From assembly GCF_003461245.1 (NCBI RefSeq), contig NZ_QTWS01000018.1:1-64000 (forward strand): DNA of 64,000 bases, in the 5' to 3' direction. A program made the position numbers and the translations under genes. Position 1 is the stretch's first letter. Each line of letters begins with the position of its first letter. This document shows, in pieces, positions 21,355 to 36,835 of this stretch. Below the pieces are notes generated by a model. That model was given only the letters and a program-made list of their open reading frames with translations. It searched no databases and was not told where the DNA came from. Source of the stretch: Blautia sp. AF19-10LB. Its GTDB lineage: Bacteria > Bacillota > Clostridia > Lachnospirales > Lachnospiraceae.

Positions 21355-22293
21355 CTACCATCCCTCTTCTGAGTGGATGTCGAATTTCAGGATCTGCTGT
21401 TCGTAGCTTTCCGGGCGTTTTCGCCATTCGATCGGGGTAACTCCCATAAGCTGCTTAAAGTTCCGGTTAAACGTTGAGTTTGTCGTAAATCCGCACTTGT
21501 GGGCAATATCCGCCACCGGCGCATCTGTTTTCTGCAGAAGATCACAGGCAGTCTGGATTCGCACGGTATTGATATATTCCAGCGGGCTTACTTTCATATA
21601 AGAGGTAAAAAGCCGTCGAAAATGTGTCTCACTGATGTGGCAGCTTTTTGCGAGATTTTCGATCTTGATATCTTCCATGTAGTGATCGGATATGTAATCG
21701 AGAGATCTGGAGATCATGTTCGTGATCTTTCCCTTTTCTTCCGGAACTCTCTCTTCTGCTTCATTTCGATTCATTCTGGCAATTTCCGCCAGAAGTGACG
21801 CAAGGATTCCTTTTGCTTCCTCAAGATAAAATTCCTCGCCATTTCGCATAATATCCATGATCTTGAGGATCTTGGATGCTACAGAAGTATTGTCTGCTTC
21901 TTTTAGAAACAGTGGTTTGGAATAAATACGCTGGAGCATTTTTTCTGCTTTTACAGGATTGTCCAGAAATTTCCGAAGAAATCCCTCTACATCGATAAAC
22001 AGATACTCCCACTGGCTAAGATCTCCCGGATCACTGTTCGTAGTATGAGGATAATTCGGTGGAAGGACCGTAAACTCTCTTCCATGAAAACGCACCATAT
22101 CCTCTCCCAGAATCAGATGCCCCTCTCCCTCATAGCAAAAGCCGATCTCAAGATAATTATGAAAATGAAGATAATCCACACCTTTGCCATAATTCTGCCG
22201 CCACTTCTGCCCCAGCAATGCCAGGATCGGGCTCCCCGCCGGCATCTGGTAGTAACGGAACTCCATCTTGGGTTTTTTTCTCTTTTTCGCCAT
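21355..22293 (-). CDS. AraC family regulator
   Basis: 312 residues. An N-terminal cupin-type domain (LHFHNYLEIGFCYEGEGHLI, ending PPNYPHTTNS) senses a small molecule. The C-terminal HTH pair reads IKIENLAKSCHISETHFRRL and VADIAHKCGFTTNSTFNRNF, with the family end GVTPIEWRK. The basic start MAKKRKKPKM has GGAGGG upstream. It is the closest AraC gene to the direct repeats before the ABC operon and may control it. Confidence 0.92.
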   Translation of the reverse strand: MAKKRKKPKMEFRYYQMPAGSPILALLGQKWRQNYGKGVDYLHFHNYLEIGFCYEGEGHLILGEDMVRFHGREFTVLPPNYPHTTNSDPGDLSQWEYLFIDVEGFLRKFLDNPVKAEKMLQRIYSKPLFLKEADNTSVASKILKIMDIMRNGEEFYLEEAKGILASLLAEIARMNRNEAEERVPEEKGKITNMISRSLDYISDHYMEDIKIENLAKSCHISETHFRRLFTSYMKVSPLEYINTVRIQTACDLLQKTDAPVADIAHKCGFTTNSTFNRNFKQLMGVTPIEWRKRPESYEQQILKFDIHSEEGW

Positions 22294-22346
22294 TGTATCC
22301 CTCCGTTTCTCAGAGATATTGTATTATTGTACAACAAAAAAAGGGT

Positions 22347-22391
22347 AAAAAAAAGACCTCTCTGCCATAACTGGCATTGAGATCTTTTTCT
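22347..22391 (-). terminator. terminator of pflBA
   Basis: On the minus strand AAAAAGATCTC and GAGGTCTTTTT enclose an inner stem TGCCA gtta TGGCA, followed by a T-run. It ends the pfl operon before the AraC gene. Confidence 0.75.
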
Positions 22392-22411
22392 TTTCCAGTC
22401 TTCTGACCGGT

Positions 22412-23149
22412 TTATATCGCTCCCAGAATTTCTCTGGCATTGTCGATCCGTTCCTTCGAAGGTGGTCTGACACCTTCCAGCGGATAAGGAATTCCTAGCT
22501 GTTCCCACTTAAATACACCAAGTGTATGGTACGGAAGCACTTCGACTCTCTCCACTGTTTTTAAAGTATGGATAAAATCTGCAAGCCTGTGGAGATACTC
22601 ATCTTTATCGCTGCCTCCCGGAACCAGTACGTGGCGGATCCACATCGGTTTTCCCATATCTGACAATTTCCGTGCCATTGCCAGAATATTTTTGTTGGAC
22701 TGTCCTGTAAGCTTGATATGTTCTTCTTCGTCAATCTGCTTGATGTCCAGAAGAACAAGATCAGTATACTTCATAAGCTCCAGCCATTTGGAATAAAAAG
22801 GTTCCTTTTCTGTGTAAGGATTGGCACTGGTATCAAGAGTCGTATGAACTCCTGCGGCCTTTGCCTGACGGAAAAATTCAATCAGGAAATCAATCTGAAG
22901 AAGAGGTTCTCCTCCACTCACAGTGATCCCGCCTTTGTTACCCCAGTAATTCTTATAGCGAAGAGCCTGTTTCAGAAGCTGAGACGGGGTGTACTGCTGC
23001 CCCTCTCCCATTTTCCAGGTGTCCGGATTATGGCAGAACTGGCAGCGCATTGCACATCCACTCAGGAATATCACATATCTGACGCCCGGTCCGTCTACTG
23101 ATCCGAAGCTTTCCAGAGAATGGACATATCCTTTGATTTCTTCACTCAT
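22412..23149 (-). CDS. pflA: pyruvate formate-lyase activating enzyme
   Basis: A 245-residue radical SAM enzyme that installs the glycyl radical on PflB. The [4Fe-4S] cluster ligands are Cys32, Cys36 and Cys39 (SGCAMRCQFCHNP), and the SAM-binding motif TVSGGEPLLQ follows. Its ATG begins 2 bp after the pflB stop with no strong ribosome site, so it is probably translationally coupled to pflB. Confidence 0.97.
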   Translation of the reverse strand: MSEEIKGYVHSLESFGSVDGPGVRYVIFLSGCAMRCQFCHNPDTWKMGEGQQYTPSQLLKQALRYKNYWGNKGGITVSGGEPLLQIDFLIEFFRQAKAAGVHTTLDTSANPYTEKEPFYSKWLELMKYTDLVLLDIKQIDEEEHIKLTGQSNKNILAMARKLSDMGKPMWIRHVLVPGGSDKDEYLHRLADFIHTLKTVERVEVLPYHTLGVFKWEQLGIPYPLEGVRPPSKERIDNAREILGAI

Positions 23150-23151
23150 TA

Positions 23152-25407
23152 TTACATTCTGTCGTGGCAGGTTCTGGCAATAACATCCAGCTGCTGCTCT
23201 CTTGTAAGGTCGATGAATTTAACGGCATATCCGGATACACGGATTGTGAAGTTTGCATACTCTTCTTTTTCCGGATGTTCCATAGCATCAATCAGTTTTT
23301 CTTTACCGAATACGTTAACATTGAGGTGATGAGCACCCTGATCAAAGTATCCGTCAAGCACACGAACAAGGTTCTCTGTACGTTCTTCTTCTGTATGTCC
23401 CAGAGCATCAGGGTTGATGGTCTGAGTATTGGAGATACCGTCAAGGGCATCTTCATAGTCCAGTTTTGCAACAGAGTTGAGGGATGCAAGAAGTCCGTTC
23501 TGCTCTGCTCCATAGGACGGGTTGGCACCAGGTGCCAGCGGTTCGCCTGCTTTTCTTCCATCCGGAAGAGATCCTGTAGCTTTACCATAAACAACGTTGG
23601 ATGTAATGGTAAGAATGGAAGTAGTAGGTTTGGAATCACGATAGGTATGGATGTGTTTCAGTTTCTCAAGGAATGTAGAAAGCAGTGTTGTTGCGATCTC
23701 ATCTGCTCTGTCATCATCGTTACCATAACGTGGGAAGTCACCTTCTACGATGAAGTCTGTTGTGATTCCGTCTTCATCACGAACAGCTTTAACTTTTGCA
23801 TATTTGATAGCGGACAGGGAGTCTACTACGTGAGAGAATCCTGCGATACCAGTTGCGAAAGAACGGTCAACCTTTGTATCGATCAGAGCCATCTCTGCTG
23901 CTTCATAGTAGTATTTGTCATGCATGTAGTGGATCATGTTCAGTGTTCCAACATACAGATGAGCCAGCCAGTCCATCATCTTGTCATATTTAGCAACTAC
24001 TTCGTCATAATCAAGATACTCAGAAGTAATCGGCTGATAGTTCGGTCCTACCTGCTGTTTTGTCTTCTCATCAACACCACCGTTGATAGCGTAAAGAAGG
24101 CATTTTGCAAGGTTTGCACGAGCTCCGAAGAACTGCATTTCCTTACCTGTCTCAGTAGCGGATACACAGCAGCAGATGCTGTAGTCATCACCCCATACCG
24201 GACGCATAACATCATCGTTCTCATACTGAACAGAGCTTGTCAGTACAGAGATGTCAGCTGTATATTTTTTGAAGTTTTCAGGCAGTCTTGAAGAATACAG
24301 AACTGTAAGGTTCGGTTCCGGAGCCGGTCCCATGTTTTCCAGTGTATGCAGGAAACGGAAGTCGTTCTTTGTTACCATGGAACGTCCGTCCTGTCCCATA
24401 CCTGCAACTTCCAGAGTTGCCCATACCGGGTCACCGGAGAACAGCTGGTTGTAAGAAGGAATACGGGCAAATTTAACCATACGGAATTTCATTACCATGT
24501 GGTCAACAAGCTCCTGAGCTTCTTTCTCTGTAAGAGTTCCGTTCTCAAGGTCTCTTTCAATATAAACATCAAGGAATGTGGAAATACGTCCAACACTCAT
24601 TGCAGCACCGTTCTGAGTCTTGATTGCTGCAAGATATCCGAAATACAGCCACTGGAATGCTTCTCTTGCATTCTTAGCCGGCTCGGAAATATCAAATCCG
24701 TATGCTTCAGCCATAACCTTCATGCCTTTGAGAGCACGGATCTGATCAGCGATCTCTTCACGAAGCTGGAAGTCATAACGTCTCATACCCTGACGGTCGC
24801 ATGCTGCGAAGTCTTTCTGTTTTCCTTCGATCAAAGCATCGATACCATACAGAGCAACTCGTCTGTAGTCACCAACGATACGTCCACGTCCGTAAGTATC
24901 CGGAAGACCTGTCAGGATCTTGCTGTGACGGGCTAATTTCATCTCTGGTGTGTAGATATCAAATACACCCTGGTTGTGTGTTTTGAATTCATAGTTGTGG
25001 AATACGTCTTTGATCTTGTCGCTTACTTTGTATCCGTAAGTTTCGCATGCCTGCTCTGCCATTTTGATTCCACCGTATGGCATAAATGCACGTTTCAGCG
25101 GTTTGTCAGTCTGAAGACCAACAACTGTTTCAAGATCTTTAAGATCTTCGTCGATGTATCCCGGGCCATATGCTGTCAGAGATGTAACAACCTCTGTTTC
25201 CATATCCAGAACTCCGCCTTTGGCACGTTCTTCTTTCTGCAGTTCCTGAAGTTTTCCCCACAGTTTGTTTGTTGCTTCTGTTGGTTCTTCCAGGAAGGAA
25301 GCATCTCCGTCATATGGTGTGTAGTTCATTGAGATAAAGTTACGAACGTCGATTTTTTCTTTCCAACGGTTTCCTTTGAAACCTTCCCACTGTGAAAAGT
25401 TTTTCAT
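23152..25407 (-). CDS. pflB: formate C-acetyltransferase (pyruvate formate-lyase)
   Basis: A 751-residue glycyl radical enzyme turning pyruvate and CoA into acetyl-CoA and formate, central to anaerobic fermentation. The catalytic cysteine pair matches Cys413-Cys414 in the triplet ICCCVS, followed by [15 protein letters not shown]. The glycyl radical site is Gly726 in RVSGYAV, 25 residues from the end. The start [12 protein letters not shown] at 25407 has GAGAGG upstream; the frame extends further up but without a site. Forms an operon with pflA. Confidence 0.97.
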
Positions 25408-25500
25408 TTTGCACCTCTCTAATATATGATTTATTCCGCGTATGTCCCGTCTAACTTTTCTTGCAAAAGAAAAATAAGACCGGAATCTTATTAGTTTCAA

Positions 25501-25556
25501 GTGAACACTCCCTTGTTCACGCCGCTAGTGTACACTATGGAATACGCCGTTGTCAA
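25501..25556 (-). promoter_or_regulatory. pfl promoter with a perfect palindromic operator
   Basis: Minus strand: -35 TTGACA (25551-25556), 18-bp spacer, -10 TACACT (25527-25532). Directly downstream lies GTGAACA CTCCCT TGTTCAC as read on the plus strand (25501-25520), a perfect 7-bp inverted repeat over the expected transcription start. Its position fits a repressor site. The half-site is not the TTGTGA core of Rex; the nearby TetR protein is a candidate binder. Confidence 0.7.
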
Positions 25557-25671
25557 TCGATTAGCGCATGCTTTTAATTTAATACAATTTGTAGCTGTGT
25601 CTTGATATTTTTTATCAACATGTTGTGGTTTTGTACTTTTTTACGTTCAAAAAATGTACCCGGAAAAGTAC

Positions 25672-25696
25672 AAAAAAGCAGCCTCTCGCTGCTTTT
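25672..25696 (-). terminator. terminator of the TetR gene
   Basis: AAAAGCAGC ctctc GCTGCTTTT hairpin with a T-run on the minus strand, overlapping the end of the TetR gene. Confidence 0.85.
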
Positions 25697-26330
25697 ATAT
25701 TCCCCCGTTCCACACATCAATATGCAGAAGCTGGAACAATAATGCAAATACTGTTTTGTAGATCGTTCGTGCCTTGAGAGCTGTCTTGTCCATATATCCA
25801 AGATGCATTTTGACTGCTACAGATACGGTGCTGTCGATGATGTTGGACACGATCACCTCCGGATCCATCAGATCGGACACCCCAAACATCCTGCCGGTCT
25901 CTACCATATAATTAACGAATACTTCAAAGCTCTGCTGCCGCACCTCAAGGATCTTCTTAGTATAGTGTGCTGACTGGCAAAATCTCCAGTAAAAAATGGT
26001 CTGTTCCGGATCACTCATAAGGAATTCCCAATATGCACTCCAGAGAGTCCAGCACATAGATTCCAGATCCTCTGCTGTCTTAAGCTCTGCCTTCTGGTTC
26101 TGGATCAGATTCTGGATCATTCCTACAACCTTGCCGTCTACTTCAAAAAAAGATGTCTCCATCAGATCGAACAGATCCTTGTAACACTGATAAATATACG
26201 GGTCGGAAAGCCCGCATCCCTTTGATACTTTACGGACGGTAACGCCTTCGATGCCTTCTTCTGCTACTACTTTATATATGGAACGCTGAAGTCTTTCTTT
26301 TAATTCTTCTTTTGTATATTTTCGAGCCAT
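25695..26330 (-). CDS. TetR/AcrR family regulator under riboswitch control
   Basis: 211 residues. The N-terminal HTH (about residues 12-50) reads EEGIEGVTVRKVSKGCGLSD followed by PYIYQCYKDLFDLMETSF, the TetR pattern. The rest is a helical ligand-binding domain. The start MARKYTKEEL at 26330 has GGAGAG upstream. It is a single-gene unit preceded by a cyclic-di-GMP-I type riboswitch and terminator. A palindrome at the nearby pfl promoter may be its operator, but this is not shown. Confidence 0.92.
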   Translation of the reverse strand: MARKYTKEELKERLQRSIYKVVAEEGIEGVTVRKVSKGCGLSDPYIYQCYKDLFDLMETSFFEVDGKVVGMIQNLIQNQKAELKTAEDLESMCWTLWSAYWEFLMSDPEQTIFYWRFCQSAHYTKKILEVRQQSFEVFVNYMVETGRMFGVSDLMDPEVIVSNIIDSTVSVAVKMHLGYMDKTALKARTIYKTVFALLFQLLHIDVWNGGI

Positions 26331-26404
26331 TACACTCTCCTTCTGTATGCCGTTGATTTGGTTAAATTTGACCGAATCCCGACTGCTGACTTCGCTTTTT
26401 ACAT

Positions 26405-26442
26405 AAAAAAAGCAAGACAGCAGATGGATTCTCTGTTCTTGC
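26405..26442 (-). terminator. riboswitch expression platform: intrinsic terminator
   Basis: Minus strand: GCAAGAACAG (26433-26442) pairs with CTGTCTTGC (26412-26420), one A bulged, 12-nt loop, then seven T (26405-26411). Its 5' arm begins inside the last bases of the aptamer, so aptamer folding and termination can compete. An alternative stem of CTGCTG (26418-26423) with CAGCAG (26385-26390) could act as antiterminator. Confidence 0.8.
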
Positions 26443-26507
26443 AACTGGCTGGCTCGTTCTCGGCCCCTATAGCTTTGCGTCACTGCGTTACCACAGCTTT
26501 GCCTTTA
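26441..26507 (-). ncRNA. cyclic-di-GMP-I (GEMM-I) type riboswitch aptamer
   Basis: The minus strand shows the conserved GEMM-I elements in order: GGCAAA (26498-26503), a short stem CTGTG capped by the GNRA loop GTAA, then TGACGCAAAGCTATAGGG, GGCC, and the 3' block AGCCAGCCAGTTGC. The residue matching Vc2 G20 is G, which in this family favours c-di-GMP over cGAMP. The right-hand stem is short. It is followed at once by a terminator and then the TetR gene. Not confirmed with a covariance model. Confidence 0.82.
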
Positions 26508-26520
26508 TGAAGTTAAGTTC

Positions 26521-26549
26521 ATGGTAACGTAAATTCTGCATTTTTTCAA
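26521..26549 (-). promoter_or_regulatory. promoter of riboswitch-TetR transcript
   Basis: Minus-strand -35 TTGAAA (26544-26549) and -10 TACCAT (26521-26526), spacer 17 bp, placing the start about 5 nt before the aptamer. Confidence 0.65.
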
Positions 26550-26579
26550 GGGTTTTGATCCAAATAAGTAAAAATTAAT

Positions 26580-26640
26580 GTAAATGTTAAAGTAAATGTT
26601 AACCTGATTTATTTTAATTCATGGTGTAACATGGTATGAT
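26580..26640 (+). promoter_or_regulatory. candidate promoter region of terD-AIM24 operon
   Basis: Two direct copies of GTAAATGTTAA (26580-26590 and 26592-26602), 12 bp apart, lie about 32 bp upstream of a -10-like TATGAT (26635-26640). No good -35 is seen, so a regulator binding the repeats may be required. Confidence 0.45.
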
Positions 26641-26687
26641 TAGAACAGTGAACAATGTAGTATCAATAAAATACGGGGAGGTAAACT

Positions 26688-27491
26688 ATGTTTCAAATTC
26701 CCACAAAGATCGAACCGGCATATACCGCCGGGAACGTTCTTACACTTAACCAGCAAAAGATCCAGCCTGCTCTGCACAGGGGAAATATTCTTTCTGTAAA
26801 TTTGAAGGAAACTTCATCTGGCCATGTACAGGAAAATCCCAAAAGAACGCAGGCTTATCGACATCCAGAACCAGCACCTGTAACTCCGACAGTATCTTCG
26901 GTATTCTCTGCTCCGCAGAAACACGATATCCCGGTCCTTCGTAACGTCATACAGAAGGGCCAGAAAGTCCGTATCGGCACAGTCGGGCAGCTTCCAAAGG
27001 TGCGTGTTGCACTTGGCTGGAACGTCTCTAACCCTCAGTGTGATATCGATTTATCCGCTTATCTTCTGGATGCTTCAGGCAAGGTTCCCGGCGATGACTG
27101 GTTTGTTTTTTACGGACAGACACTGAGCCCCGACGGAAGTGTTGCCCTGCATGTAAACGGCTCCAGGGCAGACCGTGAATATGCGGATATTGATTTTTTC
27201 AAACTGAATACTTCCATACGGAAGATCGTTTTTGTCCTTACGATCAACGAGGCACTGGAGCGGCACCTAAATTTCAGCATGGTCAAAGATGCCTATATCC
27301 GGCTTCTCGATCCGGATTCCGGTCAGGAGATCTACAGTTTCATGCTGACCGATTATTATGACAATGTCACATCCATGATGCTCGGAGAGATTTACTTACA
27401 TAATACAGAATGGAAATTCAACGCCATCGGAAATGGTGTCGCCAGAGATCTGGCGGGGCTCTGCCAGTTATACGGCGTTGAGACAAACTAA
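26688..27491 (+). CDS. TerD domain protein with N-terminal extension
   Basis: 267 residues. The first 80 or so are low-complexity and proline-rich, with the near-repeat GNVLTLNQQKI / GNILSVNLKET. A TerD domain (about 85-267) follows, containing VRVALGWN, CDIDLSAYLLD, DDWFVFYGQT, and the C-terminal [10 protein letters not shown] block. TerD proteins bind calcium and take part in tellurite, membrane and phage stress responses. The usual GDN-x-TGEG calcium loop is replaced by HVNGSRADREYAD, so calcium binding may be altered. It is co-transcribed with the AIM24 gene 15 bp downstream. Confidence 0.9.
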   Translation: MFQIPTKIEPAYTAGNVLTLNQQKIQPALHRGNILSVNLKETSSGHVQENPKRTQAYRHPEPAPVTPTVSSVFSAPQKHDIPVLRNVIQKGQKVRIGTVGQLPKVRVALGWNVSNPQCDIDLSAYLLDASGKVPGDDWFVFYGQTLSPDGSVALHVNGSRADREYADIDFFKLNTSIRKIVFVLTINEALERHLNFSMVKDAYIRLLDPDSGQEIYSFMLTDYYDNVTSMMLGEIYLHNTEWKFNAIGNGVARDLAGLCQLYGVETN

Positions 27492-27506
27492 CGGGAGGAT
27501 ACTCTT

Positions 27507-28211
27507 ATGATCAAATTTGAAACCATAAACGAACTGACACTCAAAGTCACTACTACAGGCAACGACGTTATCTTCACCAAGACCGGTGCTTTTATCGCAG
27601 GCGACTGCAGCGGCAACACTAATTACCGCTTCGAAAAAGTCCTTCTCGGACCGCAGAAAAGTCTCGCCCAGGCAGCACTCGGCTCCCTGATGCGCCGCGT
27701 CACCGGTGAAAACATTCCTCTTACCAAAGTCACCATGAACGGTCCATCCGAAACCTATTACGCAGAAAGCGCACAGCATGTTCTGGTCTATAAACTGGAA
27801 CCGGGCGAAACGATCTCTGTCGAATCCGAAAACCTGCTTGCATTTACACAGGACTGCAAATACAGCGTCCGCTTCATCGGTGTCGGCGTTTTGTCCCAGA
27901 AAGGTCTTGCTACCACCACACTTACCGGAACTGGAAGCGAAGCTTATGTGGCGGTCATCACTGACGGAAACCCGATCGCACTCAGCAATGTACAGTCCCA
28001 CAATACGATCTCTGTCGATCCGGATGCTGTGATCTGCTGGATGGGCAATGGCGCCTGCGACCCGCGCATCACAACAGATGTCAACTGGAAAACCTTTATC
28101 GGACAGGCTTCTGGCGAATCTTATTCCTTTGAATGGCATGGCGGAATTCCGGTAACTGTTATCATTCAGCCTTCTGAACGCAGCGGCGGTATCCGCGTTG
28201 CAATCGATTAA
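27507..28211 (+). CDS. AIM24/TIGR00266 family protein
   Basis: A 234-residue beta-rich protein of the AIM24 family (double beta-helix barrel, no catalytic residues known). Visible features include MIKFETINELTLKV at the N-terminus, SAQHVLVYKLEPGETISVES in the middle and GNGACDPRITTDV toward the end. Bacterial members commonly sit beside ter genes, as here with the upstream TerD gene. Its exact role is not known. It has GGGAGG upstream. Confidence 0.85.
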   Translation: MIKFETINELTLKVTTTGNDVIFTKTGAFIAGDCSGNTNYRFEKVLLGPQKSLAQAALGSLMRRVTGENIPLTKVTMNGPSETYYAESAQHVLVYKLEPGETISVESENLLAFTQDCKYSVRFIGVGVLSQKGLATTTLTGTGSEAYVAVITDGNPIALSNVQSHNTISVDPDAVICWMGNGACDPRITTDVNWKTFIGQASGESYSFEWHGGIPVTVIIQPSERSGGIRVAID

Positions 28212-28213
28212 AA

Positions 28214-28246
28214 AAATATCCCCTGCCACTTTAGCAGGGGATATTT
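28214..28246. terminator. bidirectional terminator
   Basis: A perfect 13-bp stem AAATATCCCCTGC / GCAGGGGATATTT with a 7-nt loop, between the AIM24 gene and the converging P-type ATPase gene. Confidence 0.93.
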
Positions 28247-28261
28247 CAAAATCAGCTCTTT

Positions 28262-30901
28262 TTATTTGTTAGATCTCATGATCGCTTTTCGTACCATATC
28301 CACAGGGATGATCAGTACTCCAAGAACCATGGAAACAAGCAGTGCTTTCAGTGTCAGAGGAGTTGTGCTGAAGACTTCTCCACCGATCTGGATCAGGACT
28401 GTCTGAAGAACAAAGATCGCACCCATTACAAGGATAAATCTCTTATTTTCTCCAATATGCTCAAACAGGTTAAATCTCTCAGATCTGGTATTCAGACTGT
28501 TAAAGATAATCGCATAAATAAAGAATGCAAACATAAAGGTCTTCTCATACAGATCCGGATTTGAACATCCTGCCGGCATAACTGCTGTTGTGATTCCGCC
28601 GACATTTTCCAGGATCAGGATAGATCCCAGAGTGATAAATATTGAACTTACACCAATTGCAGATTTGATATATCCTGTCAGGATATTGTCGCTTCTCTTT
28701 GCCGGCTGCTCGTTCATGTAACGGTTCAGGATCGGCTCACCGCCGAATGCCATAGCTGCCAGTGTATCCATGATCAGGTTGATCCACAGGATCTGTACGA
28801 TAGAGAATGGCTCTGTCCAGCCAAGGATCGGTGCCAGAATGTTCATCAACAGGGTACTGATATTTACAGTTAACTGGAAGATCAGGAATTTGCCGACGGA
28901 TTTTGCCATCGTTCTACTGTTCAGTACACAGTCTTTGATAGAAGTCAAACTGTTATTCAGGATGACAACATCGCCTGCTTCCTGTGCAACTGCGGTTCCA
29001 TCTCCCATTGCAAATCCGATATCCGCCTGTTTCAGAGCAGGTGCATCATTGACACCGTCTCCGGTCATACCACAGACATCATCAAGCTGCTGTGCAACTG
29101 TGACAAGGCGTTTCTTGTCCAGAGGTTTCGCACGGCTGACAACACGAAGATTCGGAAGTTTTTTCTTAAGCTCATCATCAGAAAGCTGTTCCAGTTCATC
29201 ATGAGTAAGAACAACTTCTGTCTTTTCATCTTTGAGGATTCCGGCTTCTTTTGCGATCGCAACGGCGGTCTCTTCGGCATCACCGGTAACCATGACTACC
29301 TGGATTCCGGCACGGTTCAGGACTTCAACTGTTTCGATCGCATCTTTTCTTACGTTGTCTCGCAGAGAAAGGACTGCAAGAAGGATCTTCTGGGAACCAA
29401 TGATCTTCACTACGGAGAGAAGTTTCATAGTTCTCTTCGCCTGTGCGACCATCTGCTCTTCCACTTTGGCTTTCTCTGCAGATGTAAATTCTGCGATGCT
29501 GCCATCTTCTGTCATATAATGTGTTACGTCATTGATGATGTTCTCTGTTGCACCTTTCCAGTAAACAGTGCCATCATTTAGTTCTACGGTTGCACATTTC
29601 TTCTCGGAATCAAATCCGCTGATCTCTTTTACTTTGGACGCATCAACTTTATCCGGAGCACCCTTGGAAATAGCATAGGTCAGAAGTGCACGGTCCATGT
29701 TGTTACTTCCGATCGCTTTACCTTCAGAGATTTTTGCAAGGTTATTCAGAGTGATCGCTTCCAGGAAATCATTATGTGAGACATGGTCAACGATTCTTCC
29801 GTCTCCAAGGACAAACTCTACCAGTGAAAGATTTCCCTCGGTAATGGTTCCTGTCTTATCACTGAACAGAAGGTTCATGTAAGCAGAATCAGAAAAAGCT
29901 GCCTTATGGCTTACAAGGATGTTTTTCTTATACATGGATTCTGTGTTCATGGACTGAACCAGGCTGTTCATCATCGGAAGACCTTCCGGTACTGCCATGA
30001 TAACGATGGAGGCCATCAGCATAACAGCCTCTGCGATCAGAAGAAGTACAAATACTGGTGTGATTGCTTCATCTGCTCGCATGATAGAAAGAACAACCTG
30101 CAGGACACCTGCGATCGCTGCTGCAGAAACACCAAGTTTACCGATTCCGCCGGCAACAACTTCAAGTTTGAGGCTGGAAGTATCTTTACGCTCTTCTTCC
30201 TCGTTTTCATCGGTAAGGGCTTTGTTGATCTTACCAAGTTCGGATGCATCGCCAATCACGGTTGCTACCATATATGCCTCGCCGCTGGTAACGACTGATC
30301 CCATAAATACTTTATGTGCAGAAGAATAATCTGTAGATTCTGCTTCTTCCATGGTATCTGCTGCGGACTTGGACTCATCACGGGATTCTCCGTTCAGAGC
30401 TGCCTGAGATACTTTCACATTGCCTTTGAAAACAAGTCCGTCAACCGGGACTTTATCACCTGCCTGGATCAGAATGGTATCGCCTTTAACAATATCACTT
30501 GTGAGAACTTTGACAAGTTTGCCGTTTCTGAATACTTTGGCGTAGGTTTTGCTGTACTCTTCCTGCAAAGCCTCACTTCGTGATGTATTTCTGTATTCAG
30601 ACAAAGTGCTGAATCCAGTCGCAAGTGCGATCGCAATCACGATACTGATGATCTCAACGACATCATTGTCGCCGCTCAGTGCCGGAACGATCACGCCAAG
30701 GATTGCAAGTACAATCTTGAGTACCAGTGCAAGACATAGAACCTTGATCCAGATATCATCAAAAGCACCGATGAACATAGACCAGAGTGACTCTGTTTCT
30801 TTCTTGGCAAGTGCGTTGGTTCCATACTGCTGTTTGCTCTGCGCTGCCTGCTCCTCCGTCAAGCCCTGTTCAAGAGCTTTCCTGTTTAGTTTTTCACTCA
30901 T
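28262..30901 (-). CDS. P-type calcium-translocating ATPase (PII type)
   Basis: An 879-residue P-type ATPase expected to pump Ca2+ out of the cytoplasm. Order: N-terminal cation ATPase domain, actuator domain with ALNGES, helix-4 motif VPEGLP (304-309) typical of Ca2+ pumps, phosphorylated Asp348 in DKTGT, and the hinge TGDGVNDAPALKQADIGFAMG. C-terminal helices complete it. The ATG at 30901 is used; the frame extends upstream without a better site. It ends the yceG-telA-terD-terD run. A calcium pump beside calcium-binding TerD proteins fits, since TerC or such pumps occupy this place in other ter operons. Confidence 0.95.
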   Translation of the reverse strand: MSEKLNRKALEQGLTEEQAAQSKQQYGTNALAKKETESLWSMFIGAFDDIWIKVLCLALVLKIVLAILGVIVPALSGDNDVVEIISIVIAIALATGFSTLSEYRNTSRSEALQEEYSKTYAKVFRNGKLVKVLTSDIVKGDTILIQAGDKVPVDGLVFKGNVKVSQAALNGESRDESKSAADTMEEAESTDYSSAHKVFMGSVVTSGEAYMVATVIGDASELGKINKALTDENEEEERKDTSSLKLEVVAGGIGKLGVSAAAIAGVLQVVLSIMRADEAITPVFVLLLIAEAVMLMASIVIMAVPEGLPMMNSLVQSMNTESMYKKNILVSHKAAFSDSAYMNLLFSDKTGTITEGNLSLVEFVLGDGRIVDHVSHNDFLEAITLNNLAKISEGKAIGSNNMDRALLTYAISKGAPDKVDASKVKEISGFDSEKKCATVELNDGTVYWKGATENIINDVTHYMTEDGSIAEFTSAEKAKVEEQMVAQAKRTMKLLSVVKIIGSQKILLAVLSLRDNVRKDAIETVEVLNRAGIQVVMVTGDAEETAVAIAKEAGILKDEKTEVVLTHDELEQLSDDELKKKLPNLRVVSRAKPLDKKRLVTVAQQLDDVCGMTGDGVNDAPALKQADIGFAMGDGTAVAQEAGDVVILNNSLTSIKDCVLNSRTMAKSVGKFLIFQLTVNISTLLMNILAPILGWTEPFSIVQILWINLIMDTLAAMAFGGEPILNRYMNEQPAKRSDNILTGYIKSAIGVSSIFITLGSILILENVGGITTAVMPAGCSNPDLYEKTFMFAFFIYAIIFNSLNTRSERFNLFEHIGENKRFILVMGAIFVLQTVLIQIGGEVFSTTPLTLKALLVSMVLGVLIIPVDMVRKAIMRSNK

Positions 30902-30954
30902 TTTGGTGAATTCCTCTCTTAAAATAAATTTATATATATTCTGATAATGAAGCA

Positions 30955-30983
30955 GGAAGAGAAACTGCAAAAGTTTCTCTTCC
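30955..30983 (-). other. intercistronic hairpin between terD and ATPase genes
   Basis: GGAAGAGAAACT and AGTTTCTCTTCC form a perfect 12-bp stem with a 5-nt loop. No strong T-run follows on the minus strand, so it is more likely an attenuating or mRNA-stabilising element than a full terminator. Confidence 0.7.
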
Positions 30984-30999
30984 CAAACTCTTCACATCA

Positions 31000-31590
31000 T
31001 CATACATACCGTCTGCAAAGATCGCCGATCGATGTGTCCTTTGTGCCCTGACCGATGGCTCCGAATTTCCATTCGCCATTGTGTCTGTAGATCTCTCCAA
31101 AGATCATTGCGGTCATACCGGAATAATTCTCGGTAAGGTCATATTTACACATCTCGCGATTGGTACTTCCATCTACAATTCTGATAAATGCATTTTTGAT
31201 CATTCCAAAATGCTGTTTTCTCTGGACTGCTGAATAGATATTTACAACGATCACGATCTTGTCATATTCCTGCGGCACCCTGGAAAGTTCAATGAGGATC
31301 TGCTCATCATCGCCTTCTCCCTCGCCAGTCAGGTTATCTCCCATATGACGGACAGTGCCTGATTTGTGCACAAGATTTCCGAAATAAACAACATCTGTCT
31401 TATCCACAAATTTACCATTCTTAAGCAGGATCGCGGTCGCATCACAGTCAATATCTGCCGCCTTAAAAAGCCCGAACAGCCCTGATCTCTGCTCTACCGC
31501 ATCCCATCCAAGTCCTACGAGTACATTTGAAAGTCCCTTGCTCTCTTTGCTGAGACTGACTTTCTGTCCTTTTTGCAAACTAATCGACAT
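31000..31590 (-). CDS. terD: TerD family stress protein (first of two)
   Basis: A 196-residue single-domain TerD protein. Family features: SLQKGQKVSL at the start, VGLGWDA, DIDCDATAILL, the calcium loop [13 protein letters not shown] (about residues 90-102), and the C-terminal GEIYRHNGEWKFGAIGQG. It is 64 bp downstream of its paralogue in the same operon. TerD proteins are cytoplasmic, membrane-associated calcium binders of the ter stress system. GGGAGGAG precedes the ATG. Confidence 0.95.
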   Translation of the reverse strand: MSISLQKGQKVSLSKESKGLSNVLVGLGWDAVEQRSGLFGLFKAADIDCDATAILLKNGKFVDKTDVVYFGNLVHKSGTVRHMGDNLTGEGEGDDEQILIELSRVPQEYDKIVIVVNIYSAVQRKQHFGMIKNAFIRIVDGSTNREMCKYDLTENYSGMTAMIFGEIYRHNGEWKFGAIGQGTKDTSIGDLCRRYV

Positions 31591-31654
31591 ATTCTATCTC
31601 CTCCCGGCATTCGCCAGTCAGTTAATGTGTAACGTTGTTTTTGATGCAAAAAAA

Positions 31655-32236
31655 TTATGCAACTTCGATTCCGTAATGTCCGCAGAGTGCTGCCAGACCG
31701 CCCTGGAATCCACTGCCGATCGCATTGAATTTCCATTCGCCGTTGTGTTTGTAAAGTTCTCCAACAACAATAGCTGTTTCGATGGAGAAGTCCTCTCCCA
31801 GATCATAACGGATCAGTTCCTGGTTTGTATCTTTGTCCACGATTCTGATATATGCATTGGAAACCTGGCCGAAGTTCTGTCTTCTTGCCTCTGCCTCATA
31901 GATCGTTACTGTAAAAGCAATTCTCTCAACATTTGACGGAACATCTGCAAGAACAACTTCCAGTTCTTCATCATCACCTTCGCCCTCGCCAGTACGGTTA
32001 TCTCCCATATACTTTACGGAAGCTGACGGATGTTCAAGATTTCCATAGAAGATGAATTCTTTGTCCGTCGGGCATTTACCATTGGAACCAAGCATAAATG
32101 CTGCTGCATCAAGGTCAAAATCTGCACCTGTGTCAAAAGCATTTACATCCCAGCCAAGTCCTACCATGATGTTCTTTAAGCCCGGATTTCCCTTTGTAAG
32201 ATCTACTTTCTGTCCTTTTGATAAATTGATTGGCAT
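31655..32236 (-). CDS. terD: TerD family stress protein (second of two)
   Basis: A 193-residue TerD protein, paralogue of the next gene. It shows [33 protein letters not shown], the calcium loop [13 protein letters not shown] and the end [15 protein letters not shown]. It has AAGGAGG upstream and lies 50 bp after telA. All calcium-loop acidic residues are kept. Confidence 0.95.
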
Positions 32237-32285
32237 AGCTGTTTCCTCCTTTATGATTTCCTCTTTTGAGAAATTTTAACATGTT

Positions 32286-33431
32286 TTATTTGCCTGCACC
32301 ACCATAGGTTTTGAGAAATTCCTGTTTGATATTCTCAAGGCGGGCCGCATCGTCGATACGCTGTTTTCTTGCTTCCTTCTGAATATTCTGCGTTTCCTCG
32401 ATACCATTGACGATCGTTCTCCACGTTGTTTCCAGCGTTTCGATCTTGACGGAACTTCCACTTGCAAGTCTCGCTGTCATCTTGGACTGCTCAACTGTAT
32501 TCCTGGCATTTTTGATCAACATTTCATTTGTCTTCTTGTCAAGTTCTGACAGTGCCTCTGCCTGGATCTTCTGGCGTTTGAGCATGACTGCCTGGGCAAG
32601 CCCCTGCTTAAAGACCGGAAGCGTAACGATAAACGCTGAATTGATCTTTCTGACAAGGTTCATATTGCTGTATGCCATTGTCTTGATCATCGGAATGGAC
32701 TGGATCGCAATATTCTCAGCAACGCGAAGATCCTGTGTACGCTGTTCCAGCATCATAAGTGCATTGTTCAGTCCTGCCAGTTCAAGCTGAATGGAGTTAT
32801 CTCCTGTCGCCTCAAAATCTGCCTGGCGCTGTGCAATGTAAGCTTCCAGTTCACGGCAGCCCTGCTCACCGGCAAGAATGTATTTGACAAGCTGATGGTA
32901 ATAATCGACATTTGCATCAAACATCTGCTCCAGCTTACGGTTGGACTGCTTGATCTCGCCCTCATACTCACGGAGCTGCACATAGATCTTGTCTACTTCC
33001 TCTCCCATTGTATGATATTTGTCGAGGATCTTTTCGAGCTGTTTCTTCATATTTCCAAACAGCTTGTTAAACAGGCCTTTGTTTTCCTGAAGTTCACTCG
33101 GATCAAACTTTGACATGATCTTGGACAGCGATTCAAGCATCTCACTGGACTCATCCAGCTGGCTCATACTCATGCTGTTCAGAACAACATCCGATGCTTT
33201 TGCAATCTCCTCTGCCGCCTCTGCACCGAAAGAAACGATCGTTTCGAGATTATTGACCTCGATCGTGCTTACAAGTGCGTCGACCTCCTCGGAATTCGTC
33301 AGTGTTTCATTCATTTGCTGACGGTCTGCCATGATATCATATGGCTGCACTGTCTCAATCTCAGTGCTGGCTGCCGGTGCAGATTCCACGGGTGATGCCG
33401 GTGGTGTTACCTTGCTGAAATCAATTCCCAT
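32286..33431 (-). CDS. TelA family toxic anion resistance protein
   Basis: A 381-residue, largely alpha-helical cytoplasmic protein of the TelA (KlaA) family, named for tellurite resistance and found in ter operons. The first 40 residues are proline- and alanine-rich; the rest is coiled coil with the family segments FNKLFGNMKKQLEKILDKYH and ETLETTWRTIVNGIEETQNI. It starts 6 bp after the yceG stop and precedes the two terD genes. Confidence 0.93.
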   Translation of the reverse strand: MGIDFSKVTPPASPVESAPAASTEIETVQPYDIMADRQQMNETLTNSEEVDALVSTIEVNNLETIVSFGAEAAEEIAKASDVVLNSMSMSQLDESSEMLESLSKIMSKFDPSELQENKGLFNKLFGNMKKQLEKILDKYHTMGEEVDKIYVQLREYEGEIKQSNRKLEQMFDANVDYYHQLVKYILAGEQGCRELEAYIAQRQADFEATGDNSIQLELAGLNNALMMLEQRTQDLRVAENIAIQSIPMIKTMAYSNMNLVRKINSAFIVTLPVFKQGLAQAVMLKRQKIQAEALSELDKKTNEMLIKNARNTVEQSKMTARLASGSSVKIETLETTWRTIVNGIEETQNIQKEARKQRIDDAARLENIKQEFLKTYGGAGK

Positions 33432-33437
33432 AACACT

Positions 33438-35708
33438 TTATCCTTTCCTGAATAGTCTGTCACGCCATGACGTGTGTGCTGTTAATGGAATCGTATTCCA
33501 GTCAGGAACCTGCAGATCATACATAAAATCTCCTGTCTGATGTTCTTCCATTAATCTCTGGTTAAAATGGTTATCCATATTGTAGCCTGTCGGAACAAAG
33601 AAAAGCACATCAAATCCCAGCAGGTTCAAAAATGCTGCATAGACAGAATCCTCCAAAGTGATCAGTACTTCTGAAGCATTGATGTAGATCAGTTTCGGAT
33701 TTTTCTTCGTAAAATCAAAATTCTGTATCAGCCGCGTGACCTGTTTCGGCAGGTTCAGTGCGACAGATATGATCGTATATTCTGTTCCATTCTCAAATGT
33801 TCCCCGGATCAGCCGCTGCTCGATCAACGCCTCCAGCTTGTCCAGGATGTACTCCTGCATCTCTTCCCGGAGAAATCCATACGGATATGCCGGATGATTC
33901 CGGATCTTCCTGCGCTGCAGTTTCCCGTTTCGGAAAAATTCCGCCGCGTACATTTTAATCGGATTCGGTGATGTGGAAGTCAGAAACGGAGGATGATCGA
34001 TCACCACCGTTTCCGGTGTCATCAACTGTTTGATCGAGATCCAGTAACCCTCTGTTTTCCTGTCCTTCACGCCGGATATTTTTGAAAAAATCACCGGCAT
34101 GTTCACGGTTCCGTCAGCCGTACTGAAATTTGGTCTGTATTTCATCTCCGTATTCCAGAGAAGTTTGATCTCCCTGTCCATAGTCTGCAGCGAGATCGTA
34201 TTGGCTTTCGTAAACTGCTGATCCCGGAATATCACAGAGTCATTGTACATCAGTGTATCCAGTTCCCGTTCTGCATGATACGCGGCAGTTCCTATATGAA
34301 GCTGTGCGTTTTGCTCCGGAAACTGATCCAATTTCATTGAAGTCTCATAATTTATCTCATATAAAAGAGTATCTTCAAGCATGCAGTGTTCATTCCGGTC
34401 CGGACACAGAATCAGGACATCCACCGGCACTCTCGCCAGAAATTTCATAAAAAGAACTTCATTTACATTCTGACATACGCCCAGATGGATAAAACAACCT
34501 GTGTCGTTTTTCTTCCAGTTCTTAAAAATCTGGTTCTGATATCTCCGGATCCAACACAAAAGATACACACCCTTATTCATCAGTCTGTTAAGATTGATCT
34601 CCGGCTCTCCTGCTTCCAGCTTCATCACTTCTGCAAAAGCCCTGCAGAGTACTGCCTGCAGAACCGGGCTCACCGGATATTGTATATTCATCTGCAGATC
34701 CGCGATCATCTGCTCCACTCCTGTATAGTGGTTTCTTCGGATCCTCATGATCTCATCTGTTGTCGGGTTTGGAATGCTGCCATTCACGATCACTGTCTGC
34801 CGCTTCTGATTCTTCAGTTCCAGATAAAACTGGTACAGATCATTTGCATAAGTAAGTTTATCCTCCACACCACCTATCCGCAGATAACAGTTATAAAAAA
34901 GATCCTCCCTGTCGCCGCGCTGCTCCGGTGCTTTGAGGATATCTGCCAGTCCACTTCCTTCGATCCAGGCATTTGTGCAGTTGATAAGCCCATCCTTTGA
35001 ACCAAACAACTTCTGATTCTCCTCTGCCTTCTCAACCTCTGCTCTCAGTTTCTTAAGTGAAAAATCCGCCGGGAATCCTCCGACGTTTTCTCCTGTATAT
35101 AAAGTAGATTTCTGAGACTGCGGATCAAGTTTCAGATACGCTTCATCTCCCATCGGTTCTGCAAGGACCACATCACATCCTGCATTTGAAAGAACAGAAA
35201 TCAGCAGAAGTTCATAATTACTGATCGAACCAACATAGAGGATCTTGGGAACATTTTGCTGTCCGAGCTGATTCACGATCCGCTCAAATTTGTAATAAAG
35301 CCAGCACATAAACTTGATATATGCATTCTTGAGCATATTTTCAGTTTTTCCCGCTCTTCTCAGTTCCTCCAGTGAATCATAGATGGAAGCGGCTACATTC
35401 TCGTTCTGTGAACGGTTCATCCTGGGAAGCCATTTCTGAAGCCCCGACATGATAAAGCCCATGCTGAGCTGAAAATCATTCCCCATCATTTCATAGTAAT
35501 AAGACAGATTCCCCTCCGTGGGATTCGGTATCTTACCCTCAACGATCACTCCGCATTTCCCCGCGGCATCATAATAATCGTACAGAAATCTGCCGATTTC
35601 TTCCGAGTAACCATTGATACGGTAAAAATAAACACCCTTTTCCCTACGCTTCCCCAACTCTGTAAAAAAGTCACTGAGGCTTTGAATTTCTTTATGTTCT
35701 AAAACCAA
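33438..35708 (-). CDS. yceG: YceG family protein of the ter operon
   Basis: A 756-residue soluble protein matching the YceG family (named for B. subtilis YceG, encoded in the yceB-I ter-like operon next to TelA). Two copies of a GKIPNPTEGNLSYYYEM / GSIPNPTTDEIMRIRRNHY segment suggest an internal duplication. The enzymatic role is unproven; a component of a biosynthetic module has been proposed. It starts with TTG at 35708, with GAGGTGAG upstream, and is the first gene of the minus-strand ter operon. Confidence 0.85.
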   Translation of the reverse strand: MVLEHKEIQSLSDFFTELGKRREKGVYFYRINGYSEEIGRFLYDYYDAAGKCGVIVEGKIPNPTEGNLSYYYEMMGNDFQLSMGFIMSGLQKWLPRMNRSQNENVAASIYDSLEELRRAGKTENMLKNAYIKFMCWLYYKFERIVNQLGQQNVPKILYVGSISNYELLLISVLSNAGCDVVLAEPMGDEAYLKLDPQSQKSTLYTGENVGGFPADFSLKKLRAEVEKAEENQKLFGSKDGLINCTNAWIEGSGLADILKAPEQRGDREDLFYNCYLRIGGVEDKLTYANDLYQFYLELKNQKRQTVIVNGSIPNPTTDEIMRIRRNHYTGVEQMIADLQMNIQYPVSPVLQAVLCRAFAEVMKLEAGEPEINLNRLMNKGVYLLCWIRRYQNQIFKNWKKNDTGCFIHLGVCQNVNEVLFMKFLARVPVDVLILCPDRNEHCMLEDTLLYEINYETSMKLDQFPEQNAQLHIGTAAYHAERELDTLMYNDSVIFRDQQFTKANTISLQTMDREIKLLWNTEMKYRPNFSTADGTVNMPVIFSKISGVKDRKTEGYWISIKQLMTPETVVIDHPPFLTSTSPNPIKMYAAEFFRNGKLQRRKIRNHPAYPYGFLREEMQEYILDKLEALIEQRLIRGTFENGTEYTIISVALNLPKQVTRLIQNFDFTKKNPKLIYINASEVLITLEDSVYAAFLNLLGFDVLFFVPTGYNMDNHFNQRLMEEHQTGDFMYDLQVPDWNTIPLTAHTSWRDRLFRKG

Positions 35709-35728
35709 CGATTCTCACCTCAATATTT

Positions 35729-35770
35729 ATTATAAATCATATTGTGACTCTCTTTTTTCAGAATAGTCAC
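35729..35770 (-). promoter_or_regulatory. candidate ter operon promoter with inverted repeat
   Basis: Minus-strand -10 TATAAT (35729-35734), 20 bp before the YceG start. An inverted repeat GTGACT (35744-35749) / AGTCAC (35765-35770) covers the expected -35, which is itself poor. It resembles a regulator site. Confidence 0.5.
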
Positions 35771-35881
35771 TGTAAATCATTTTATCATAGTCGACTGTTA
35801 ATTACTACAGGTCTGAATTATTTTAAGATAATTTTTAGAAAATAGTTACATTTGTCATATAGCGTAAAGTTATGTCCTATT

Positions 35882-36835
35882 TTACAGGTAATAGCAGTTT
35901 CCACTGCATCCGTATGGAAAAATCTGCTTCTTCATTTCTGTCCGGAAAGCAGCTTCTGTGTCTGTATTTTCCAGAATCTCAAGAGCAGTTTTGAGGTTTC
36001 GGATATCTTTCTCCATAAAATCGGTGTAGTTGCCTCTGCCGACCAGTTTCAGGTGTGTAATCCCGGCATCTCTCAGTCTGTAAAGTGCACATAGACCGCA
36101 GCCGGTCGCACCGCACAGATAGCCGTTGTCATCGTATTTGGGGACAGTGGCATCTTCATCCTCAGATTCATCTCGTACCGGTTCCGTCCAATAGGGAACC
36201 CTGCACAGATGCCCTAGCTCATCACAGTGAAGCGAATTACAGAACGCTCCCGTAAACTGGCACATCTCATTCAGCACAAAAGCCTCAAACTCTGTCTCCG
36301 CCCGTCTCCCACCGGCAGTTCTTTCCGAGCAGATCACAGACTGCATATCCTCGAAGCTGTTTTTCCTGTGAAAAATCACCCTCTTCAGATCCAGACGCTG
36401 AAAAACTTCCACTGTTCTGCGGTTGATCTCTCCCATCTCACCACTCATATGGATTTCGCACGGGATTCCCTTCTCTCTCAGATAAACGATCAACGCCGGG
36501 TCTGCAATAATATAGCTCATAAATCCAAGTTTCATACAGTTCTCTATGATCTCCACGATCTCCGGATACTGCTGTGGAATATAGTACAGGGAATTGAATG
36601 TCAGATGTACCGGCTTTTTGTATTTCCGAATCATTTCTGACAAAATTTCCAGTTCACTGAACGCCCCAAGCTGCACATGATAACACAATACCTCACGACG
36701 GTTGAGCGGCATGACAGTTCCGTACTTTTCCGTCCACGAATACGGTACAAATCCGCTGAAAAACTCATCTGCACCTGCTTCCACGAAACGGATATATTCA
36801 TCTACTGATCCCAGTCCTGCTGTAATCTTCATCAT
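35882..36835 (-). CDS. peptidase U32 family-like protein
   Basis: A 317-residue TIM-barrel protein of the U32 collagenase-like family. It begins MMKITAGLGSVDEYIRFVEA and has AGADEFFSGFVP, where U32 members have GADAVYxG. The C-terminal half carries cysteine groups (CQFTGAFCNSLHCDELGHLC and CGATGCGLCALYRL), probably an iron-sulfur site as in U32 hydroxylases such as RlhA or TrhP. Whether it acts on protein, RNA or cofactor is not known. It follows its unknown partner by 9 bp. Confidence 0.8.
   Translation of the reverse strand: MMKITAGLGSVDEYIRFVEAGADEFFSGFVPYSWTEKYGTVMPLNRREVLCYHVQLGAFSELEILSEMIRKYKKPVHLTFNSLYYIPQQYPEIVEIIENCMKLGFMSYIIADPALIVYLREKGIPCEIHMSGEMGEINRRTVEVFQRLDLKRVIFHRKNSFEDMQSVICSERTAGGRRAETEFEAFVLNEMCQFTGAFCNSLHCDELGHLCRVPYWTEPVRDESEDEDATVPKYDDNGYLCGATGCGLCALYRLRDAGITHLKLVGRGNYTDFMEKDIRNLKTALEILENTDTEAAFRTEMKKQIFPYGCSGNCYYL

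Follow-up and report, generated by a model that had tools for sequence, protein, structure and literature searches.

A type II c-di-GMP-I riboswitch, predicted to act as an ON switch, ahead of a TetR-family regulator gene in Blautia

A c-di-GMP-I riboswitch precedes a TetR-family regulator gene in the 64-kb stretch of Blautia DNA analysed here (hereafter, the window), and a preliminary description of this DNA had named it correctly. The element has the type II form, and it probably controls transcription of this single gene, with activation by c-di-GMP as the likeliest outcome. No direction of switching had been given previously; the anatomy of the leader favours ON. Also new relative to the preliminary description are the loop and receptor subtype, the use of C92 by the terminator, a long hairpin formed on read-through, a palindrome in the leader and the accessory segment around the gene.

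When the whole window was searched on both strands, the Rfam covariance model RF01051 matched the minus strand at 26513–26437 over its full length (model positions 1–87 of 87), scoring 59.0 bits where the gathering threshold is 35 (E = 5.5e-9). The preliminary description had called a GEMM-I (c-di-GMP-I) aptamer and proposed this very search as a check, naming a non-significant score as the outcome that would count against it; the score obtained is significant, and the call holds. The only other Rfam match at the gathering threshold in the window is a partial 16S rRNA at its edge. The aptamer would have been missed on fold stability alone, given z-scores near 0 for the aptamer stretch (–0.09, with 86 of 200 shuffles equally stable) and for aptamer plus terminator (–0.65, 55 of 200). 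A promoter had also been claimed. The promoter scan gave a promoter-like pair (TTGAAA-17-TACCAT, 26549–26521, minus strand) whose implied transcription start coincides with the aptamer 5' edge, so the position fits. As a pattern, the pair does not exceed expectation: 10 such sites were found in 22200–28300 versus 9.8 in shuffles, and it is thus position that argues for this candidate.

To place the aptamer among its relatives, we compared it with 196 others. Of the 64 genus genomes, 39 contain RF01051 matches, which exceed the cut-off in 38; at least 134 of 397 family genomes contain matches too. From the genus we took 89 of 108 matches and from the family 107 aptamers (110 places among the matches listed, 107 after removal of duplicates), many of them orthologous between genomes and hence non-independent.

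The bases that would contact the ligand are in place, with G20 at 26503, C92 at 26441 and A47 presumably at 26476, by counting with the Vc2 numbering. An A at position 20 marks the cGAMP-sensing variant of GEMM-I, and in Geobacter A20 goes with cGAMP. Because position 20 is a G in the window, cGAMP was rejected as the ligand; together with the covariance match, this upholds the assignment to the c-di-GMP class, and we infer that the aptamer would bind c-di-GMP. In Vc2, as described in PMC4744006, G20, A47 and C92 contact c-di-GMP. Across the set, position 20 could be parsed in 196 of 197 aptamers, with G in 178 (window included) and A in 18. The A20 aptamers of Lachnospiraceae include those at loci L061, L062 and L068.

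The GNRA loop noted previously is present, as GUAA (P2 loop, 26491–26488), and P3, a simple short helix, lacks the 11-nt receptor. A GYRA loop lacking the corresponding receptor is the type II form of c-di-GMP-I as described in PMC11218506, and the window's aptamer shows both features. The type I form (GNRA loop plus receptor) was rejected, since P3 contains neither the 11-nt receptor nor a short version of it. Among the aptamers parsed for both elements (189; 8 of 197 were left unparsed, and the criterion for a receptor was adjusted once, following an initial tally), a receptor-like P3 was found in 157 of 173 with a GAAA loop versus 0 of 5 with a GYRA loop (GUAA two, GCAA one, GUGA two). For the three GUAA/GCAA aptamers versus the GAAA ones, the difference in receptor-like P3 has a Fisher P value of 0.0011. 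Judged by sequence, then, the window's aptamer is of a known subtype that is rare among the relatives examined.

The overlapping intrinsic terminator of the preliminary description was found on the minus strand at 26442–26405. Its stem (26442–26412, –11.2 kcal/mol) is followed by seven T, and its 5' arm opens with G26442 followed by C26441, which is C92 itself. The stretch 26446–26404 folds at –12.4 kcal/mol (z = –2.54; 4 of 200 shuffles equally good). The terminator was absent from the list of a simple terminator scan, probably because of a bulge in its stem. Removing the two basal pairs weakens it from –11.2 to –5.2 kcal/mol. In an energy model with neither tertiary contacts nor ligand, the cost of holding the aptamer bound is 2.3–2.4 kcal/mol for transcripts ending up to 26414, where the terminator is still incomplete, rises to 7.3–7.4 at ends 26411–26404, at the U-tract, and then falls to 2.4–2.6 at 26390, 26380 and 26366, with values of 3.9 at 26340 and 6.2 at 26300.

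Further downstream, a long hairpin (26431–26374, minus strand) re-pairs the loop, 3' arm and U-tract of the terminator and leaves the ribosome-binding site (AAGGAGAG, 26342–26335, minus strand) outside. Its fold is exceptionally stable, with –28 kcal/mol for 26433–26366 compared to a shuffle mean of –12.6 (z = –5.49; 0 of 200 shuffles). Because it holds the terminator's 3' arm and U-tract, this hairpin excludes the terminator. It can be completed only once polymerase has passed and hence cannot decide termination of the same transcript; we infer that it would serve as a lock on the read-through RNA. We also considered whether the hairpin is a repeated element, an idea rejected as no second copy occurred in the window or the loci compared.

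These elements suggest the following mechanism. When c-di-GMP is absent, the strand GCAAGAACAG, which includes C92, would pair with CUGUCUUGC, and this pairing would terminate transcription ahead of the TetR gene. When c-di-GMP is present, the ligand would pair with C92, blocking both basal G-C pairs of the terminator, and polymerase would read through the weakened terminator into the TetR gene. After read-through, the longer hairpin would capture the terminator's 3' arm and U-tract, keeping the RNA from the terminator fold. The TetR protein would then act on its targets, possibly including its own gene via a palindrome between the hairpin and the start codon. Transcriptional ON is predicted because the terminator takes up the ligand-pairing C92, as in the pilM layout; in its sequence and predicted fold, the leader shows the pairing of terminator and ligand-binding cytosine seen in ON switches of that kind. 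Another class I switch, Vc1, is reported to act positively (PMC4744006).

Several points weigh against ON. The overlap amounts to two base pairs, and the shortened terminator (–5.2 kcal/mol) could still work; the promoter is not above chance; and the leader is known from one genome, the searches having yielded no orthologous leader for comparison of this pairing. The same riboswitch might instead be OFF, with the bound aptamer stabilised and the two-pair-shorter terminator still forming, while the ligand-free RNA folds otherwise and escapes termination. Consistent with this, the class I switches of C. difficile found functional in isolation are uniformly OFF in the account of PMC6200980 (which also records one class I-associated gene as up), and the shortened hairpin remains in the predicted fold when the aptamer is held bound. 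Yet no antiterminator competing before the U-tract was found in the folding predictions, the ligand-free predicted fold is the complete terminator, and C92 sits in the terminator stem, all of which make OFF unlikely in our view. Alternatively, the aptamer may be intact in sequence but no longer regulatory, or responsive only at unusual ligand levels, with TetR arising from read-through. Its P3 does differ from the common form, the restriction of the leader to one genome would fit, and there is precedent in B. thuringiensis, whose conserved c-di-GMP-I element Bc1 did not respond in the transcription tests described in PMC11218506. On the other hand, the match scores 59 bits with all contact bases retained, the change in loop and receptor fits a subtype described in that same paper, and the overlap with the terminator is kept. 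We regard loss of function as quite unlikely.

Additional support for the ON switch comes from the relatives. One rule applied throughout detected a terminator at 124 of the 197 aptamers, and C92 was paired near the terminator base in 25 of these, including the window and one doubtful case (L162). These figures replace a looser earlier count (18 of 82), in which folds that drew in P3 had produced artefacts. Roughly one in five of the terminators detected behind these aptamers would by this count take up the ligand-pairing cytosine, a possible sequence mark separating ON from OFF. One such aptamer (L060), in the nearest sister genome, precedes a gene for a Cna_B-domain surface protein, of a type whose expression should increase with c-di-GMP, and its layout thus supports the ON reading. 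At the loci L072, L079 and L094, the aptamer has a very long P3, its terminator sequesters C92, and the gene that follows is, by eye, signal-peptidase-like.

How unusual is the target? We took as first ORF the longest frame starting no more than 450 bases from the aptamer. Overall, 11 of 197 aptamers had none and 28 of the 186 ORFs were masked; for the relatives, 185 of 196 aptamers had a first ORF, leaving 157 readable once the 28 masked ones are set aside. Only 1 of these 157 (L098, the aptamer of G423:C17) encodes a TetR protein, so the unusual target remarked on in the preliminary description holds for the relatives examined. The L098 protein is part of the TetR profile and matches it by construction; it was found by eye and confirmed by Pfam (PF00440, E = 3.1e-12). 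Like the window, L098 has a short c-di-GMP-I aptamer and a terminator before a TetR gene and belongs to the same genus group. Unlike the window, its loop is GAAA, its terminator leaves C92 free, and its TetR is a different one, followed by a MotA_ExbB-EAL gene. Given these differences, the pairing of aptamer and TetR arose in at least two unlike settings. In the nearest sister genome, five other first ORFs that were scanned encode hybrid histidine kinases (three), a solute-binding protein (one) and a peptidoglycan-binding domain (one). Expanded sets of short c-di-GMP-I aptamers were seen in genomes G420 (9), G421 (11) and G460 (8); in sets such as these, which include L055, L058 and L059, several aptamers precede hybrid histidine kinases, two with periplasmic solute-binding domains. 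Tandem c-di-GMP-I aptamers, in twos or threes, were observed at G262:C26:727-987, G261:C7:89151-89391, G300:C17:17265-17560 and G341:C1:1232898-1233117.

The regulator gene itself (26330–25695, minus strand) encodes 211 amino acids, although the ORF list gives a longer frame from 26483, and it is followed by a terminator (25696–25674, minus strand) supported by the terminator scan and folding. Its Pfam TetR_N score falls short (18.3 bits versus a cut-off of 24; E = 0.002), as does that of NCBIfam FadR (24.3 versus 200). However, a profile built from the protein and 44 of its 89 homologues (alignment A1) matched the solved structure 3he0 with E = 8.5e-7, and the structure model (pLDDT 91.8, all helical) has as its best Foldseek match the TetR regulator 3pas (E = 5.3e-6, TM 0.71). 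The model predicts the N-terminal three-helix HTH domain and helical C-terminal domain of the TetR fold. With profile and fold in agreement, the naming of a TetR gene in the preliminary description stands.

Homologues of 84–98% identity (P0001–P0009), which lie on metagenome contigs, were found in the protein database. Among the genomes compared the family is scarce: the 397 family genomes gave one match at E ≤ 1e-20 and the 64 genus genomes one at E ≤ 1e-15. By eye these matches, like L004/L120 and L017/L121, are other TetR proteins (for L120, also by Pfam). A scan of genome contigs with the single TetR protein yielded no relative, and with A1 it yielded one locus (L001, 8001–8271) in Hominifimenecus microfluidus, Lachnospiraceae, where the copy has in-frame stops and no Rfam match lies near it. 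A plasmid-borne TetR was rejected (no match among 72,556 plasmid records at E = 1e-5), as was a viral copy: the viral contigs contained neither an A1 relative nor an exact match to a 29-base piece of the aptamer.

What might this regulator control? A palindrome within the leader (26355–26378; 24 bp, 10 of 12 pairs) is a candidate TetR operator. Three palindromes of the same quality occur in the 64-kb window, and when the 357-bp intergenic stretch was shuffled 500 times, one appeared in 2.8% of the shuffles. The derived pattern has one other match in the window, inside the ATPase gene and with three mismatches, which is no more than chance; this search of the 64-kb window thus found no TetR target outside the regulator's own leader. 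The palindrome weakly suggests self-repression, the sole target with any support in the sequence. A two-step relay from c-di-GMP via TetR to other genes is plausible, if putative. In a more elaborate reading, c-di-GMP would open TetR transcription and TetR would bind the palindrome in its own leader to give a pulse; the 58-nt read-through hairpin, by dismantling the terminator, would make each read-through irreversible and leave the freed aptamer to keep binding c-di-GMP; and the unit, on an accessory segment with a ter-type stress module, would bring genes without an aptamer of their own under c-di-GMP control. Taken as a whole, this reading strikes us as improbable.

The accessory segment in question (25634–35888, 10.25 kb) lies between pflB and a U32 peptidase gene and was defined by DNA alignment. 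It carries the switch, TetR, TerD, AIM24, a P-type ATPase, two further TerD genes, TelA and a YceG-domain gene. Two sister genomes, G420 (the nearest of the 64 genus genomes, 93% by greA-lysS DNA) and G442, have the flanks but lack the segment between them; there, likeness to the window ends at 25633 or 25632 and resumes at 35889 or 35973, with 55 to 150 bases between the two window-like flanks. G441 and G263 align to the window in the pfl stretch alone, and the comparison rests on G420 and G442. The segment may have been gained in the window's line or lost in the others. TetR might then be a local regulator of the segment's ter-type stress genes, through which c-di-GMP would reach that module. 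Regulator and module sit together on a segment that two sister genomes lack at the pfl flank, and TetR and the TerD gene at 26688 are divergently oriented. Against this, TelA is present in 7 of 64 genus genomes (E ≤ 1e-60) with a TetR match in none of the seven, meaning that the module does not need TetR and the two are not tied, and the window offers no other good match to the palindrome motif. A local target of this kind is therefore doubtful. The intergenic stretch between TetR and TerD also contains near-tandem repeats of TTAACATTTAC (26570–26605), a possible regulator site, and a perfect inverted repeat (GTGAACA-N6-TGTTCAC, 25501–25520) lies just 3' of a promoter-like pair before pflB.

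At the level of titles, our literature search (in which 'TetR' also matches 'tetraloop') returned nothing on a TetR gene preceded by a c-di-GMP riboswitch, and no c-di-GMP-I study for Lachnospiraceae. The window adds a TetR regulator, in Lachnospiraceae, to the transcription factors under c-di-GMP riboswitch control. If the switch is ON as predicted, high c-di-GMP would act on genes elsewhere by way of a regulator synthesised when needed, and the targets of TetR would reveal the genes linked to this messenger in a gut bacterium. The relay idea is not new, as regulators in this position have been described: Vc2 controls TfoY in Vibrio cholerae (PMC7371385), and three regulators of C. difficile lie in operons under c-di-GMP riboswitches according to PMC6200980. 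Aptamer class, subtype, terminator layout and relay are all known; TetR as the target is uncommon. With the type II form of RF01051, the window's aptamer shares the full-length covariance match, G20, C92, the GUAA loop and the lack of an 11-nt receptor, differing in its short P3 and in having TetR as the sole downstream gene. Like Vc2 before tfoY, it is a c-di-GMP-I aptamer ahead of a transcription regulator, in what would be a relay, but Vc2 is a translational OFF switch and TfoY belongs to a family other than TetR. In the pilM riboswitch of Geobacter, as described in PMC9262584, the ligand-pairing cytosine is likewise held in the terminator of an ON switch, although there the ligand is cGAMP and the gene pilM, whereas here the direction is a prediction.
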